Of a DNA stretch of 64,000 nt, positions 23,434 through 29,586 are shown one piece after another. Numbering within the stretch: position 1 is the stretch's first letter; the number at the start of each line of letters is the position of its first letter. A program made the translations under genes and the position numbers. This stretch comes from Thomasclavelia ramosa DSM 1402. Lineage in GTDB: Bacteria; Bacillota_I; Bacilli_A; Erysipelotrichales; Coprobacillaceae. The notes under the pieces were generated by a model. That model had not been told where the DNA came from, made no database searches, and saw only the letters and a program-made list of their open reading frames with translations. Location of the stretch: contig NZ_CP036346.1 of the NCBI RefSeq assembly GCF_014131695.1, positions 2,666,001-2,730,000 on the forward strand, in the 5' to 3' direction.

Positions 23434-24327
23434 TTATTCATAATCAGCCGTGTAACCACGATTATCTAATTCCAATTTCACAACTTGCCAATCTTTAATT
23501 AATGCACCTAGCTCTTCTTTAATCCGAACTACACCCATCTTATCCTCACCACGAATAACAGCCATTATTGTTGGACCAGCCCCCGACAAATAAGCCCCAA
23601 GTACTTTTTCATCTTGTTCTAAAACTCCCATGATTTCATTAAAGCCTTTAATTAAATCACCACGATATGGTTGATGCAAACGGTCTTTAAAGCCTAATTT
23701 TAGCCCCTCATCATATCCATTAATCAATGAAGCAACCATCAACGCTAAATGAGATACGTTTTTAATCGCGTCAGCTCTTGGCAAAACCTGTGGTAAAACT
23801 GATCTTGATTGTTCAGTTGATAATGTAAATGGCGGAATCAATGTAACAAACCGATAGTCATGTTTAACAGGGATATTTAATGTTAATACATTATCTTCTT
23901 CCATTACTGATACTGTCAAGCCTCCAAAAATTGCCGGTGCCACATTATCAGGATGACCTTCAATTGCAGTTGCTAATTCTAGAATTTCTTGTCGATCTTC
24001 AACTTTATCTTTAAAAGCAAAAGCCCCAACGATTCCTGCTACAATACAAGTAGAACTACTACCCAATCCACGGGTATAAGGAACATCCCCACTACATTCA
24101 ATATTTACGCCTTGATATTCTAAGCCACAAATTTCAGCAGCTTGTTTAAAAGCCTGGTAGGTCATATTTTCTTCATTACAAAACTGTTCTGGACAACCAG
24201 TAATATTTAAACCTTGATCAGCCAGTTCAAAGGTAAAGGTATTATATAAAGTCAGTGCCAACCCTGCAACGTCAAATCCGGGTCCTAAGTTAGCACTTGT
24301 CGCTGGTACTTTTACTTTTACTTTCAT
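23434..24327 (-). CDS. thrB: Homoserine kinase
   Basis: This 297-residue GHMP kinase converts homoserine to O-phosphohomoserine with ATP. It shows the VKVPATSANLGPGFDVAGLAL opening, the ATP-binding motif PYTRGLGSSSTCIVAG (about residues 84-99), the EGHPDNVAPAIFGG motif and the C-terminal GAYLSGAGPTIMAV. GGAGGTTAGC precedes the ATG. It is second in the thrC-thrB operon, 9 bases after thrC. Confidence 0.96.
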   Translation of the reverse strand: MKVKVKVPATSANLGPGFDVAGLALTLYNTFTFELADQGLNITGCPEQFCNEENMTYQAFKQAAEICGLEYQGVNIECSGDVPYTRGLGSSSTCIVAGIVGAFAFKDKVEDRQEILELATAIEGHPDNVAPAIFGGLTVSVMEEDNVLTLNIPVKHDYRFVTLIPPFTLSTEQSRSVLPQVLPRADAIKNVSHLALMVASLINGYDEGLKLGFKDRLHQPYRGDLIKGFNEIMGVLEQDEKVLGAYLSGAGPTIMAVIRGEDKMGVVRIKEELGALIKDWQVVKLELDNRGYTADYE

Positions 24328-24336
24328 GCTAACCTC

Positions 24337-25821
24337 CTACATTGCTTCTATTTCTGATTTGATAAAACTAATAATCTCAGTTTTATCAATCGCTTCTTTA
24401 TGTAACACTTCACGCTCTTTAATTCCTGCTAATGCTTGAGGCACAGGAACACCAGTCTTTTCACTTAATTTATCAATTGCTGTATAAACATCAAGTTCTT
24501 CCCCATAAATAGCTTGATAAACTGATTCAGGGAACTTATAAGGAGATGCAGTTGATAATAATACTGTTTTAGTATGGTCTCCAGTCTCCTGCTGATATTG
24601 TTTTAGAACACCATAACCAATGGCAGTATGCGTATCTAATAAATATCCAGTTTCATTGAAACATGTTTTAATTGTAGTTAAGATTTCATCTTCACTTAAA
24701 CATCCTGCTTTAAACTGATCTTTAATTTTAGCAAAAGTTGCATCATCTACTTCATAAACACCTTCGCTATTTAATTTATCCATATATTGACGAACTTTTT
24801 CTCCATCACCATCAGACATAAACCAAACCAATCTTTCTAAGTTACTAGATACTAAAATATCCATAGCTGGAGCATTTGTTTTATAAAACTCACGATTTGC
24901 ATCATATTTACCAGTAGTAAAGAAATCTGTTAAAATATTATTTTTATTTGAAGCACAAACAAATTTATCAATTGGTAAACCCATTTTTTTAGCAAAATAT
25001 CCTGCTAAACAGTTACCAAAATTACCACTAGGAACACAGAAATTAATCTTATCTCCTAATTTGATTTCGTTATTTCTTACTAATTCAAAATAACTATGGA
25101 AATAGTAAACGATTTGAGGAATCAAACGTCCGACATTGATTGAATTTGCAGATGATAAGAAAACATTATGTTGATCACTTGCAACTTTCAATTCTTCAGA
25201 TGCAAAAGCTTTTTTTACCGCACTTTGAGCATCATCAAAATTACCGTGAATTCCTACTACCTTAACATTCTTTCCTGTTTGACTGACCATCTGTTGTTGT
25301 TGAATCGCAGATACCCCATCCAAAGGATAGAATACTTTGATACAAGTTCCCTCAACATCTTTAAAACCTTCTAATGCCGCTTTACCAGTATCGCCACTAG
25401 TAGCTGCTAAGATCATTACTTCACGTTCCTCTTTTAATTGTTTTAAAGATAACGTCATTAAATAAGGTAGTAACGATAATGCCATATCCTTGAATGCTGC
25501 CGTTTGTCCATGGAATAGTTCAGCAACATAAACATCACCAGCCTTTTTTACTGGTACAACGATTTCTGGAAATAATCCTTTTCCATACGCATTTAAACAC
25601 GCATCATGAATCAATTCTTTTCCTTCTTCAGGTACAAATGTACTTAATACTTCAGTTGCTAAATCAACATAATTCAATTTAGATAAAACATCTAAATCCA
25701 TCTTTGTAAAATCAAAATCCGGCACTAATAACCCACCGTCTTCCCCAATTCCTTGGACGATAGCCTGATAAAAATTAATCTCTTTTTGTTGGTTTCGTGT
25801 ACTTATATATTTCTTTTCCAT
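24337..25821 (-). CDS. thrC: Threonine synthase
   Basis: This 494-residue PLP enzyme of the longer threonine-synthase class makes threonine from O-phosphohomoserine. The PLP lysine lies in ELFHGQTAAFKDMALSLLP, the phosphate loop in ATSGDTGKAAL, and the substrate region in SSANSINVGRLIPQIVYYF with CVPSGNFGNCLAGYFAKKMG. Its promoter carries the ATTGTATACAAT palindrome over the -10 box. It is divergent from hom-lysC-asd. Confidence 0.96.
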   Translation of the reverse strand: MEKKYISTRNQQKEINFYQAIVQGIGEDGGLLVPDFDFTKMDLDVLSKLNYVDLATEVLSTFVPEEGKELIHDACLNAYGKGLFPEIVVPVKKAGDVYVAELFHGQTAAFKDMALSLLPYLMTLSLKQLKEEREVMILAATSGDTGKAALEGFKDVEGTCIKVFYPLDGVSAIQQQQMVSQTGKNVKVVGIHGNFDDAQSAVKKAFASEELKVASDQHNVFLSSANSINVGRLIPQIVYYFHSYFELVRNNEIKLGDKINFCVPSGNFGNCLAGYFAKKMGLPIDKFVCASNKNNILTDFFTTGKYDANREFYKTNAPAMDILVSSNLERLVWFMSDGDGEKVRQYMDKLNSEGVYEVDDATFAKIKDQFKAGCLSEDEILTTIKTCFNETGYLLDTHTAIGYGVLKQYQQETGDHTKTVLLSTASPYKFPESVYQAIYGEELDVYTAIDKLSEKTGVPVPQALAGIKEREVLHKEAIDKTEIISFIKSEIEAM

Positions 25822-25848
25822 TGTTCATCCCCCTGTGTGATTTAAACT

Positions 25849-25877
25849 ATTGTATACAATTTATTTATATAAGTCAA
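25849..25877 (-). promoter_or_regulatory. thrC promoter with ATTGTATACAAT operator
   Basis: On the minus strand TTGACT (25877-25872) and TACAAT (25854-25849) have a 17-base spacer. The 12-bp perfect palindrome ATTGTATACAAT (25849-25860) covers the -10 box. The same palindrome occurs in the divergent hom promoter. Confidence 0.8.
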
Positions 25878-25942
25878 TACATACTTATTATAACATATCA
25901 AAGTAAAATAACTTTGATTATTTCAATTATTATTGATTACCA

Positions 25943-25971
25943 TTGACTATTGTATACAATCGTGGTAATAT
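25943..25971 (+). promoter_or_regulatory. hom promoter with ATTGTATACAAT operator
   Basis: TTGACT (25943-25948) and TAATAT (25966-25971) have a 17-base spacer, and the palindrome ATTGTATACAAT fills it at 25949-25960. Placement between -35 and -10 in both divergent promoters indicates a repressor shared by the threonine-pathway operons; TTGTATACAA-type sites are often used by GntR-family proteins. Confidence 0.8.
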
Positions 25972-26002
25972 GTCATAAATTAGGAAATTGGAGGACCGAG
26001 AT

Positions 26003-26071
26003 ATGTTATCAATGAACATGTTTGCAATAATTATGGCAACGATTAGTTCCATTATTGTGCATGCTCAATAA
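26003..26071 (+). CDS. Leader peptide of the hom-lysC-asd operon (Met/Ile-rich)
   Basis: A 22-codon ORF begins 32 bases after the -10 box, with GGAGG eight bases before the ATG. It reads MLSMNMFAIIMATISSI and ends IVHAQ. Four of 22 codons are Met and five are Ile, both products of this pathway branch, and one is Thr. It is followed by a terminator just before hom. This layout fits translation-coupled attenuation, with ribosome stalling when Met- or Ile-tRNA is scarce. Expression is inferred. Confidence 0.65.
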   Translation: MLSMNMFAIIMATISSIIVHAQ

Positions 26072-26102
26072 TATATTGGTTCTGCTATTTATTTAATGAT
26101 AT

Positions 26103-26130
26103 TGGGACCTTATTTTAAAGGTCTATTTTT
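26103..26130 (+). terminator. Attenuator-type terminator before hom
   Basis: GACCTT-ATTTTA-AAGGTC is followed by TATTTTTATT and ends about 20 bases before the hom start codon. As an intrinsic terminator inside the leader it would cut transcription unless an antiterminator forms. The upstream stretch 26072-26102 could supply the competing strand, for example TATTGGTTC or GATATTGGGACC, but the alternative fold needs computation. Confidence 0.65.
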
Positions 26131-26150
26131 ATTATATAAGGGGGAATTAG

Positions 26151-27305
26151 ATGAAAATCGGTGTTATCGGACTAGGTACTGTTGGTTATGGAGTTATCGA
26201 AATCCTAACTAATGAAAGAAAACGTCTCGAAAAAGTCATTAATGATGAAGTAATGATTAAATATGGTTGTGGTCTTGAAGAGGTTGATCTACCAGAGGGG
26301 GTAATTTACACAAAAGACTTTAATGATGTTATAAATGATCATGAAATTGATGTTGTAGTTGAATTGATTGGTGGAGTAACTGTCGCTAAAACAATTATTT
26401 TAGAAGCTATAAGAAATGGTAAACATGTTGTTACTGCCAATAAAGCATTATTAGCCCATGATGGTAAAGAAATCTTTATGGCAGCAAAAGAAAAAAATGT
26501 CCACATTTTCTACGAAGCTAGTGTTGGTGGCGGAATCCCTGTTTTAGTCAGCCAAAAAGAAAGTTTAGTCGCTAACAACACAAAAGAAATCATTGGTATA
26601 TTAAATGGAACAACAAACTTTATTTTAACTTTGATGGAAAATGAAAATTTAGATTTTGATGAAGCTTTGACCATTGCCGATGGCCTAGGTTATGTTGAAG
26701 CAAATCCAGCATTGGATTTAGATGGAATCGATGCTGCCCATAAAATTTGTATTTTAGCTCAAAATGGATTTAAAAAATATATTGATTTTGATAAAATTAG
26801 TGCTAGTGGAATCCGTAATGTAACTAAAGTTGATATGGATTATGCTAAAAAACTGGGATATCGTTTTAAGATGATTGCTCAGGCAAAAGAAGTTAATAAC
26901 GGAATTGGAATTGATGTCGCAGCTACTCTAGTTAGTAAAAAAGAACTAGTAGCAAACGTCATGGATGCATATAATGTAGTAGAGATCGATAATGACTATG
27001 TTGAAAATGTTATTTACTACGGTAAAGGTGCAGGTCGTTATGTTACCGCTTCTGCAGTTGTAAGTGATATAATTAAAACTACCCAAGTAGAAAGATGGGA
27101 TCATGATTATGAAGACTGCTCAAACATCTACCCGATTACTAAATCTAAGTATTATCTTAGAGCAAATAAGCCATTAGATGTTGATTATGAAATGTACTTC
27201 ACTGAAAAACACGATCACATCTACATTACTCATGAAATTGAGTTAGCAGATCTAACTACAGATCTTGGTGATACAGAATACACAATTTTCAAAGTGAGGG
27301 GATAA
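26151..27305 (+). CDS. hom: Homoserine dehydrogenase
   Basis: This 384-residue enzyme reduces aspartate semialdehyde to homoserine. It shows a Rossmann motif (IGVIGLGTVGYGVIEIL), VVTANKALLAHDG, the catalytic/substrate motif IGILNGTTNFILTLM, and the LGYVEANPALDLDGIDAAHKICIL block with the active-site Lys region. It is shorter than the usual 420-450 residues, and the C-terminal ACT domain appears reduced or absent, which could lower threonine feedback inhibition. It is first in hom-lysC-asd, 1 base before lysC, and lies behind the leader peptide and terminator. Confidence 0.95.
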   Translation: MKIGVIGLGTVGYGVIEILTNERKRLEKVINDEVMIKYGCGLEEVDLPEGVIYTKDFNDVINDHEIDVVVELIGGVTVAKTIILEAIRNGKHVVTANKALLAHDGKEIFMAAKEKNVHIFYEASVGGGIPVLVSQKESLVANNTKEIIGILNGTTNFILTLMENENLDFDEALTIADGLGYVEANPALDLDGIDAAHKICILAQNGFKKYIDFDKISASGIRNVTKVDMDYAKKLGYRFKMIAQAKEVNNGIGIDVAATLVSKKELVANVMDAYNVVEIDNDYVENVIYYGKGAGRYVTASAVVSDIIKTTQVERWDHDYEDCSNIYPITKSKYYLRANKPLDVDYEMYFTEKHDHIYITHEIELADLTTDLGDTEYTIFKVRG

Positions 27306-27306
27306 A

Positions 27307-28548
27307 ATGAACATAATTGTCCAAAAATTTGGTGGTACTTCCACTCGTTCGCGTGAATCACGTTCAACCATGTACAACAATATTATTAGAGAAATCAATA
27401 ATGGTAATAAAGTTGTTGCGGTTGTTTCGGCGATGGGTCGTTATGATGATCCATATGCTACTGATACACTATTATCAATTGTTAATACCCAGCAGTTAAC
27501 AGATGAGGAGATTGATCGTCTAACTAGTATTGGTGAAACAATTTCAACTTTAGTTTGTAAAGGAGAAGTTGCTTCTCTCGGTTATCGAGCGGCAACAATC
27601 ACTAATTCAGAATTAGGAATTGTTACAGATTCAACTTTTAATAACGCAACGATCAATAAGGTTGAAGGTAAAGATATTATTGAAAAATTAAAATACGCTG
27701 ATGTCGTATTTTGCCCTGGTTTTCAAGGGCATTCTATCCATGGTAAAATTACCACTTTAGGTCGCGGGGGGAGCGATTTATCAGCAGTTGCAATTGGGGT
27801 AGCAATTGATGCTAGTGAAGTAGAGATATACAGTGATGTAAATGGAATCTACACTGCTGATCCAAGATTAGTTCCTGATGCTCTTAAATTGGATTGTATC
27901 AGTTATGCAGAAATGCTGGAACTAGCTAAAAATGGTGCTAAAGTTTTAAATCACCGTTGTGTTCAATTAGCAGCTAGTCACAATATTGCAATTCACGCCC
28001 GTTCTTCATTTGAAGACACTAAAGGGACATATGTTATAGGAGATGAGCGCATTATGAAAGAAAATTTAAATCAATTAATTATTTCCGGAATCACCGGTTC
28101 ACAAAATGAAGCGCGGATCACTTTAGTTAAAGTAGATGCCACCAACAATAGTGCGGGAAGCTTATTTGAAAAAATTGCTGATGCTGGCGTTAATGTAAAT
28201 GTATTTAATCAAGCATTAGTTGGAGGCGGAAGAATGGATATTTCACTAGTTATTAGTGATGTTGATGTTCCTACTGTCGTTGATATTATCAATGATTTAA
28301 AACCACAGTTAAATGCTGATCGTATCATTGTCCGTGGTAACATTGGTAAAGTATCGGTTATTGGGGTTGGAATTAAAAATAATCGTGGAATGTTCCAAAA
28401 AGCATATAATACATTAAGCAGCAATGGTATTAATGTTGAAATGACATCTTGCTCAGAAATAAATATTTCTTGTTACATCGATCGTGACGATGTTAAAAAA
28501 GCACAAATTTTATTACATGAAGCGTTTTTAGGAAAGGTTGGTAAATAA
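27307..28548 (+). CDS. lysC: Aspartate kinase
   Basis: This 413-residue enzyme phosphorylates aspartate at the head of the Lys/Met/Thr pathway. It has the KFGGTST motif, VVAVVSAMGRYDDPYATDTL, the catalytic loop FQGHSIHGKITTLGRGGSDLSAVAI, and two C-terminal ACT domains (from about residue 255: ISGITGSQNEARITLV and VSVIGVGIKNNRGMFQK) that bind a feedback amino acid, lysine and/or threonine. It lies 1 base after hom and 3 bases before asd. Confidence 0.96.
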   Translation: MNIIVQKFGGTSTRSRESRSTMYNNIIREINNGNKVVAVVSAMGRYDDPYATDTLLSIVNTQQLTDEEIDRLTSIGETISTLVCKGEVASLGYRAATITNSELGIVTDSTFNNATINKVEGKDIIEKLKYADVVFCPGFQGHSIHGKITTLGRGGSDLSAVAIGVAIDASEVEIYSDVNGIYTADPRLVPDALKLDCISYAEMLELAKNGAKVLNHRCVQLAASHNIAIHARSSFEDTKGTYVIGDERIMKENLNQLIISGITGSQNEARITLVKVDATNNSAGSLFEKIADAGVNVNVFNQALVGGGRMDISLVISDVDVPTVVDIINDLKPQLNADRIIVRGNIGKVSVIGVGIKNNRGMFQKAYNTLSSNGINVEMTSCSEINISCYIDRDDVKKAQILLHEAFLGKVGK

Positions 28549-28551
28549 AAA

Positions 28552-29586
28552 ATGAAAAAATATAAAGTTGCAGTCGTGGGGGCTACTGGAGCCGTCGGAA
28601 GAGAAATGTTAAGATGTATCTTCCAATTTAAATTTCCTTTTGAAAGTATTAAATTATTAGCATCAGCTCGTAGTGCAGGAAAAGTTGTTGAATTTGAAGG
28701 TCATGAATTTACTGTTGAAGAATTAACAGAAAATAGCTTTGAAGGTATCGATGTAGCGTTTTGGTCTGCCGGGGGAAGTATTTCTGAAAAATATATGCCA
28801 TTCGCTGTTAAAGCTGGGTGTGTCAATATTGATAATACTAGTCATTTCAGAATGGATCCTGAGGTGCCATTAGTAGTACCTGAAGTAAACGGAGAAGCTT
28901 TAAGAAATCATAAAGGAATTATTGCTAATCCAAACTGCACTACTATCCAAATGGTTAGTGCTTTAAATCGTTTAAATGAATATTTTGATATCGAAAGAAT
29001 CATCGTTTCTACTTATCAAGCGGTTTCAGGAGCAGGTGTTGCAGGAATGGAAGAATTATACCGCCAGTCTCAAGAAATCTTAGATGGTAAAGAACCTGTT
29101 GCCAAAACATTACCTTGCGCTGGGGATAAAAAACATTTTCCAATTGCTTTCAATTGCATTCCACAAGTTGATAAATTTGATTTAGACAATCATTTTTCTA
29201 AAGAAGAAATGAAAATGGTTAATGAAACTAAAAAAATCTTCAATAAAGATATCAAGGTCAATGCTACTTGTGTTCGTGTTCCTGTACTTCGGGGACATTC
29301 TGAATCAGTATATATTGAAACTAAAAAACCAATCGATATTGATAAAGTATTCGAGCTACTAAACAATTCTACTGGGGTTGAATTATATGATGATATTGAA
29401 AATCAAATCTATCCAATGGCTAATTTATTTGTTGGAGATGAGTTAGTACACGTTGGACGTGTTCGTAAAGATTTAGATAACCCTAACGGATTAAGTTTAT
29501 GGGTAGTTGCCGATCAATTAATGAAAGGTGCTGCTTACAACTCTGTTGATATTGGACTTAAAATGATTGAAATGGGCTTAATTTAA
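28552..29586 (+). CDS. asd: Aspartate-semialdehyde dehydrogenase
   Basis: This 344-residue NADPH enzyme reduces aspartyl phosphate. It shows VAVVGATGAVGREMLRC (nucleotide binding), the active-site Cys in IIANPNCTTIQMV (about residue 128), the YQAVSGAGVAGMEEL region and VRVPVLRGHSESVYIE with the catalytic His. It is the third gene of the operon. A very long hairpin follows its stop codon. Confidence 0.96.
   Translation: MKKYKVAVVGATGAVGREMLRCIFQFKFPFESIKLLASARSAGKVVEFEGHEFTVEELTENSFEGIDVAFWSAGGSISEKYMPFAVKAGCVNIDNTSHFRMDPEVPLVVPEVNGEALRNHKGIIANPNCTTIQMVSALNRLNEYFDIERIIVSTYQAVSGAGVAGMEELYRQSQEILDGKEPVAKTLPCAGDKKHFPIAFNCIPQVDKFDLDNHFSKEEMKMVNETKKIFNKDIKVNATCVRVPVLRGHSESVYIETKKPIDIDKVFELLNNSTGVELYDDIENQIYPMANLFVGDELVHVGRVRKDLDNPNGLSLWVVADQLMKGAAYNSVDIGLKMIEMGLI

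Follow-up and report, generated by a model that had tools for sequence, protein, structure and literature searches.

A putative ribosome-mediated attenuator with an Ile-, Met- and Thr-rich leader peptide precedes hom-lysC-asd in Thomasclavelia ramosa and related gut bacteria

Sequence analysis of a 64,000-nucleotide window (the whole stretch of DNA examined here, positions 2666001-2730000 of the 3.25 Mb genome of Thomasclavelia ramosa DSM 1402) suggests that the leader of the hom-lysC-asd operon is, with high probability, a ribosome-mediated transcription attenuator. Such a leader very likely turns on the genes for isoleucine, methionine and threonine synthesis at times of shortage in the Thomasclavelia group, a trick that these bacteria would have in common with E. 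coli. The operon is separated from the divergent thrC-thrB operon by a region of 329 bases, and the features of the locus are as follows (window coordinates; those of the promoter are predicted by consensus match).

23434-24327, minus strand: thrB (homoserine kinase), in the divergent thrC-thrB operon (NCBIfam TIGR00191)
24337-25821, minus strand: thrC (threonine synthase; NCBIfam TIGR00260)
25849-25860, no strand: ATTGTATACAAT palindrome over the -10 element of the thrC promoter, candidate repressor operator
25943-25971, plus strand: predicted hom promoter, with -35 element TTGACT (25943-25948) and extended -10 element TGGTAATAT ending at 25971
25949-25960, no strand: second ATTGTATACAAT palindrome, in the spacer between the -35 and -10 elements of the hom promoter, candidate repressor operator
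25990-25994, plus strand: Shine-Dalgarno sequence GGAGG of the leader ORF, invariant in nine members of the genus
25992-25997, plus strand: segment 1 (AGGACC), partner of segment 2
26003-26071, plus strand: leader peptide ORF MLSMNMFAIIMATISSIIVHAQ*, enriched in frame for Ile, Met and Thr
26078-26083, plus strand: segment 2 (GGTTCT), partner of segment 1 (anti-antiterminator) or of segment 3 (antiterminator)
26104-26109, plus strand: segment 3 (GGGACC), 5' arm of the terminator and alternative partner of segment 2
26105-26134, plus strand: intrinsic terminator, with its stem at 26105-26124 (segments 3 and 4) and a U-rich tail at 26125-26134
26151-27305, plus strand: hom (homoserine dehydrogenase), first gene of the operon (NCBIfam NF004976)
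27307-28548, plus strand: lysC (aspartate kinase; NCBIfam)
28552-29586, plus strand: asd (aspartate-semialdehyde dehydrogenase; NCBIfam NF011456 / TIGR01296)

The initial annotation had proposed that a short ORF with a good ribosome binding site and a terminator precede hom, and both elements are confirmed. The ORF has 22 codons, four of them Met including the start (codons 1, 4, 6 and 11) and five Ile (codons 9, 10, 14, 17 and 18). The terminator, with stem GGACCTT/AAGGTCT and tail ATTTTTATTA, is the single terminator-like site on the plus strand between 25000 and 30500; its tail ends about 16 nt, and its stem 26 nt, before hom. Moreover, the fold of 25978-26150 (-45.0 kcal/mol, z = -4.17) is not equalled by any of 200 shuffled sequences.

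We searched for hom in the family (43 genomes) and compared the upstream regions in 40 genomes. All nine members of the genus, which besides the window species comprises Thomasclavelia saccharogumia, T. cocleata and relatives, have the leader ORF and terminator upstream of hom, in support of the attenuator reading that the initial annotation had put forward. The same layout of Shine-Dalgarno sequence and ORF, hairpin between segments 1 and 2 (1:2), terminator and hom is present in genera g9 (Faecalibacillus and relatives), g14, g16, g20, g17, g6 and g3, and it is partial in g12 and g2, where single members have the ORF and terminator. Of 24 family leaders, 21 have an intrinsic terminator, compared to an expectation of 0.3 from dinucleotide shuffles. 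The leader peptides, mostly 6 to 28 residues long, are nearly unrelated in sequence and have a common composition, as illustrated by MLSMGMNSMMIIITSLIMPMNK, MMTIITIIDAFNK, MIIHMTV, MKLMIMTS, MIKTINSSKTIMCLIYC and MYKMMTMCISN. Seven genera of the family (g7, g8, g11, g13, g15, g18 and g19) have no such leader; on the hom tree it occurs in two large groups and is absent from g13, g18 and the clade formed by g7, g8, g11, g15 and g19, a distribution on which one gain with losses and two gains are indistinguishable. A covariance model of the genus leader gave confident matches only to the nine hom leaders of the genus and, in the genomes searched, found neither a second locus nor another genus. The element is therefore not a conserved-sequence RNA and, at the sensitivity of this model, is not reused elsewhere in these genomes.

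Leaders that depart from this layout were also seen. The hairpins are kept but the ATG is absent in g4, in three of the four leaders of g12 and in three of the five of g2. Four of these (L018, L019 and L021 in g12, and L037 in g4) retain the Shine-Dalgarno sequence, hairpins and terminator and have an AUU at the right distance from the former, so that they may represent either AUU-initiated leaders or decaying attenuators. In L044 and L036, a shifted stop extends the leader frame into or through the terminator, and ribosome release might take place inside the terminator in these two cases.

The coding content of the ORF is the feature common to these leaders. Across the family, Ile, Met and Thr account for 155 of 322 non-start codons in frame (48%), compared to 34/322 and 31/322 (about 10%) in the other two frames. 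When one leader was taken for each of nine genera, the three amino acids occupied 54 codons against 22.4 +/- 4.3 expected (p = 0.0005, which is the floor of this test). Ile is the most frequent (86 codons, 27%), followed by Met (36, 11%) and Thr (33, 10%) at similar levels. The earlier suggestion that Met and Ile, rather than Thr and Ile, are the control codons consequently describes the window species only, and Thr is as frequent as Met when the whole family is considered.

Three mutually exclusive helices can be drawn in the leader, namely 1:2, an antiterminator formed by segments 2 and 3 (2:3), and the terminator, in which segment 3 pairs with segment 4 (AAGGTC; 3:4). The alternative fold that the initial annotation had proposed to look for can thus be drawn, with 52/54 paired cells for 2:3 in the nine members of the genus, and the corresponding counts are 54/54 for 1:2 and 66/70 for 3:4. 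Helix 1:2 masks the Shine-Dalgarno sequence of the leader. When the partners are slid by one to three columns, the 1:2 structure, taken with its inner hairpin, falls from 92% to 34-44%, and in 22 of 25 leaders the 1:2 pairing is better than in shuffled sequences (p<0.05). In the inner hairpin, which lies inside the ORF (GGGCAT/ATGCCC), three pairs have changed on both sides, more than in most shuffles. Substitutions have also kept both alternative pairings together; U at alignment column 103, for example, stands opposite A or G at 132, and column 149 tracks 132 as U or C. Support for 2:3 in individual leaders is modest, with 7 of 25 beating shuffles at p<=0.05, the p values for g9 being too pessimistic because the terminator arm was taken there without its loop; the shuffle control for covariation in 2:3 carries no information, as each change there affects one side only. 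In g9, the roles of the segments are filled by the unrelated sequences TGACCATTATTA, TAATAATGGTTT, AGACCATT and GGTCTAT.

On the basis of this anatomy, we infer the following mechanism. Translation of the leader ORF would accompany transcription of the leader. With an ample supply of charged Ile-, Met- and Thr-tRNAs, the ribosome would clear the ORF and be released, upon which segment 1 would pair with segment 2, and segments 3 and 4 would form the terminator that stops transcription before hom. If any one of these tRNAs were short, the ribosome would stall in the ORF and disrupt the long 1:2 hairpin, and segment 2 could then capture segment 3 before segment 4 is made, permitting readthrough into hom-lysC-asd. 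A transcript carrying no ribosome would be expected to terminate as well because 1:2 hides the Shine-Dalgarno sequence of the leader.

To model ribosome stalling, the transcript was folded as far as segment 4 with a ribosome footprint masked at each codon in turn. For g9 species such as L010-L012, the probability of 2:3 is 0.00 when no ribosome is present and has a mean of 0.84-0.97 for stalls at Thr, Ile and Met codons; in L010 and L012 it peaks at 0.98 at Met, Thr and Ile codons and returns to 0.00 once the ribosome is past them or at the stop. A similar change (0.00 to 0.98) is predicted for g14. In the window species, the modelled probability rises from 0.09 to 0.5-0.6 at M4, I10 and M11, and reaches 0.75-0.78 at codons 2-3. 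When genus averages are compared, 2:3 is favored more by stalls at Ile, Met and Thr codons than by stalls at other codons (p = 0.0004), an effect due to g9 and g6; in the window species taken by itself, the former are not significantly better than the latter (p = 0.33), and in g16, g20 and g3 the 2:3 helix is weak and little switching is modelled. In addition, the equilibrium probability of the terminator is at least 0.9 under most modelled stalls in several species, which implies that readthrough must be decided during transcription. The anatomy of the leader is therefore firm; for the detailed switch, these models give good support in some genera, and elsewhere it is no more than plausible.

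Known RNA regulators were sought at the same locus. No Rfam family matches the leader at the gathering threshold and there is no credible match at E<=10 in 25822-26150; the enterobacterial threonine operon leader, specifically, has no gathering match in the window and none at E<=10 in 25822-26150. These searches bear out the earlier statement that neither a T-box nor a SAM riboswitch is evident at this position, as T-boxes (RF00230), SAM riboswitches (RF00162) and lysine riboswitches (RF00168) are all absent from the hom leader. The genome nevertheless holds 22 T-boxes, and the genes behind them, judging the proteins by eye, include leuS, tyrS, hisS, ileS, alaS, pheS, lysS, metG, thrS, argC, trpE and asnB. 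By the same kind of gene call, the one SAM riboswitch lies upstream of metK, and of two lysine riboswitches, both located elsewhere, one precedes a transporter-like gene and the other an ACT-domain gene with dapA. A separate sensor thus serves the lysine branch, in keeping with a leader of hom-lysC-asd that responds to Ile, Met and Thr.

The earlier account of the hom region had missed the two ATTGTATACAAT palindromes over the thrC and hom promoters. The palindrome has 12 copies in the genome, compared to two for a reversed control pattern, and TTGTATACAA is found at the same place in the hom promoter in all nine members of the genus. Other copies (genome positions 403164, 728542, 728581, 1285445, 1668689, 1668712, 1884625, 2020969, 2111134 and 2318141) were also recorded. 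Copies lie near serC-serA, the his operon, a T-box-led DAHP synthase gene, citrate synthase, a PEP-carboxykinase-like gene and an amino-acid symporter, and the complete sibling genome G042 shares five of the locations (hom/thrC, serC, his, citrate synthase and the symporter). The palindrome resembles an operator to which a global amino-acid regulator, as yet undescribed, would bind. Its presence at both divergent promoters and near other amino-acid and central-carbon genes, together with its recurrence in G042, makes a promoter-level repressor likely, and such a repressor could even dominate. Control of the operon is thus probably two-layered, with a palindrome-binding repressor that probably sets promoter activity as the first layer and the attenuator as the second. 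At the 20 hom loci read in the other family of this order, we saw no combination of leader ORF and terminator upstream of hom. Sixteen of these promoters (L070, L072-L074 and L077-L088) have a conserved ACAAGTGT(TTTT) element just after the -10 element, compared to 0.3 expected by chance; this element is often preceded by ATGATACAATG and occupies the place of the palindrome and leader in the window's family.

Given these palindromes, the repressor might be the main control, with the terminator lowering the basal level and the ORF serving to keep the leader translated rather than to sense amino acids. Perfect, conserved palindromes at both promoters, which also mark other amino-acid genes, are consistent with this explanation, as is the fact that genera having no leader retain the pathway. 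It leaves unexplained, however, why Ile, Met and Thr codons are about five times as frequent as in the other frames of leaders that are nearly unrelated, and why the competing helices are conserved, and we regard it as unlikely. That the leader is instead a metabolite-binding riboswitch or a variant T-box, the ORF being incidental, might be suggested by its strong folding (z -4.17) and by the status of T-boxes as the usual device of this genome. Credible Rfam matches are lacking even at E<=10, however, and no primary sequence is common between genera, where conservation would be expected of a ligand pocket or of the bulge of a T-box; the conserved part is the coding content, and this alternative is very improbable.

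The reality of the coding signal is also compatible with a peptide that itself acts, whether as an arrest peptide in the ribosome tunnel or as a small protein in trans. Either activity would need a conserved sequence, whereas the leader peptides share composition only, which leaves this explanation with a slighter chance than even the riboswitch. Finally, short ORFs are common in AT-rich DNA, and a chance ORF might have fallen beside a chance hairpin in this intergenic stretch. Conservation across genera, the frame-specific codon bias and the excess of terminators over expectation refute this idea, and the probability that we leave to it is negligible. Ribosome-mediated attenuation is the reading that we retain.

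We also consider a broader proposal, which we hold tentatively and at slightly less than even probability, that one leader peptide integrates the supply of Ile, Met and Thr while an undescribed global amino-acid repressor recognizes ATTGTATACAAT at the same promoters. A peptide leader might serve these three end products because several tRNAs can be read together only by a peptide, a T-box sensing a single one. If this proposal is true, Ile, Met and Thr are sensed jointly in a firmicute that elsewhere relies on T-boxes, each for a single tRNA, and the lysine branch is left to the lysine riboswitch. Our results also suggest the presence of a 22-codon gene that lacks an annotation and, in this clade, of a regulator of amino-acid synthesis that acts at the promoter.

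In Firmicutes, T-boxes or riboswitches are generally said to take the place that leader peptides have in proteobacteria. The conserved hom leader would be an exception to this rule for the aspartate family, present in common gut bacteria and in a genome with 22 T-boxes. A close parallel is the enterobacterial thr attenuator (thrL), in which Thr and Ile control codons, competing helices and a terminator precede the genes of the homoserine branch. Peptides from g9 such as MTIITIIDAFKK are much like thrL in composition. The present system differs in its genes, which are monofunctional hom-lysC-asd instead of thrABC, in the addition of Met codons, in the location of the Shine-Dalgarno sequence inside helix 1:2, and in giving no match to Rfam. 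The initial annotation had called the attenuator likely new, and this stands insofar as we found no report, in open papers, of a threonine or hom attenuator in Firmicutes or of leader peptides in C. ramosum, although a prior description is possible; his and ilv-leu attenuators, on the other hand, have already been described. What appears to be new is a leader-peptide attenuator for the threonine/methionine branch in Firmicutes, and its distinctive point is the multi-amino-acid content.

Attenuators of his operons have been predicted in six Erysipelotrichales, including Erysipelatoclostridium and Coprobacillus (PMC9413887). These belong to the same order and likewise have a leader peptide, terminator and antiterminator, but they contain His codons, precede his genes and concern a single amino acid instead of three. 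A His leader peptide, MKTTTNLQLHHHHWIA, with a terminator is also present in the T. ramosa genome before hisZ-hisG (L048 1450-1640, minus strand); it fits those predictions and has a ATTGTATACAAT palindrome directly upstream. His leader peptides before hisS and hisZ in bacilli were an early report of leader-peptide attenuators that replace T-boxes in Firmicutes (PMC2965389), and these, unlike the hom leader, concern histidine only. The ilv-leu attenuator of S. aureus, which has Leu and Ile codons and operates beneath CodY, has experimental support (PMC5794164). It differs from the system described here in its genes and in its repressor, but it is likewise a leader-peptide attenuator of a Firmicute placed under a promoter-level repressor, the same two-layer design that we predict for hom-lysC-asd.
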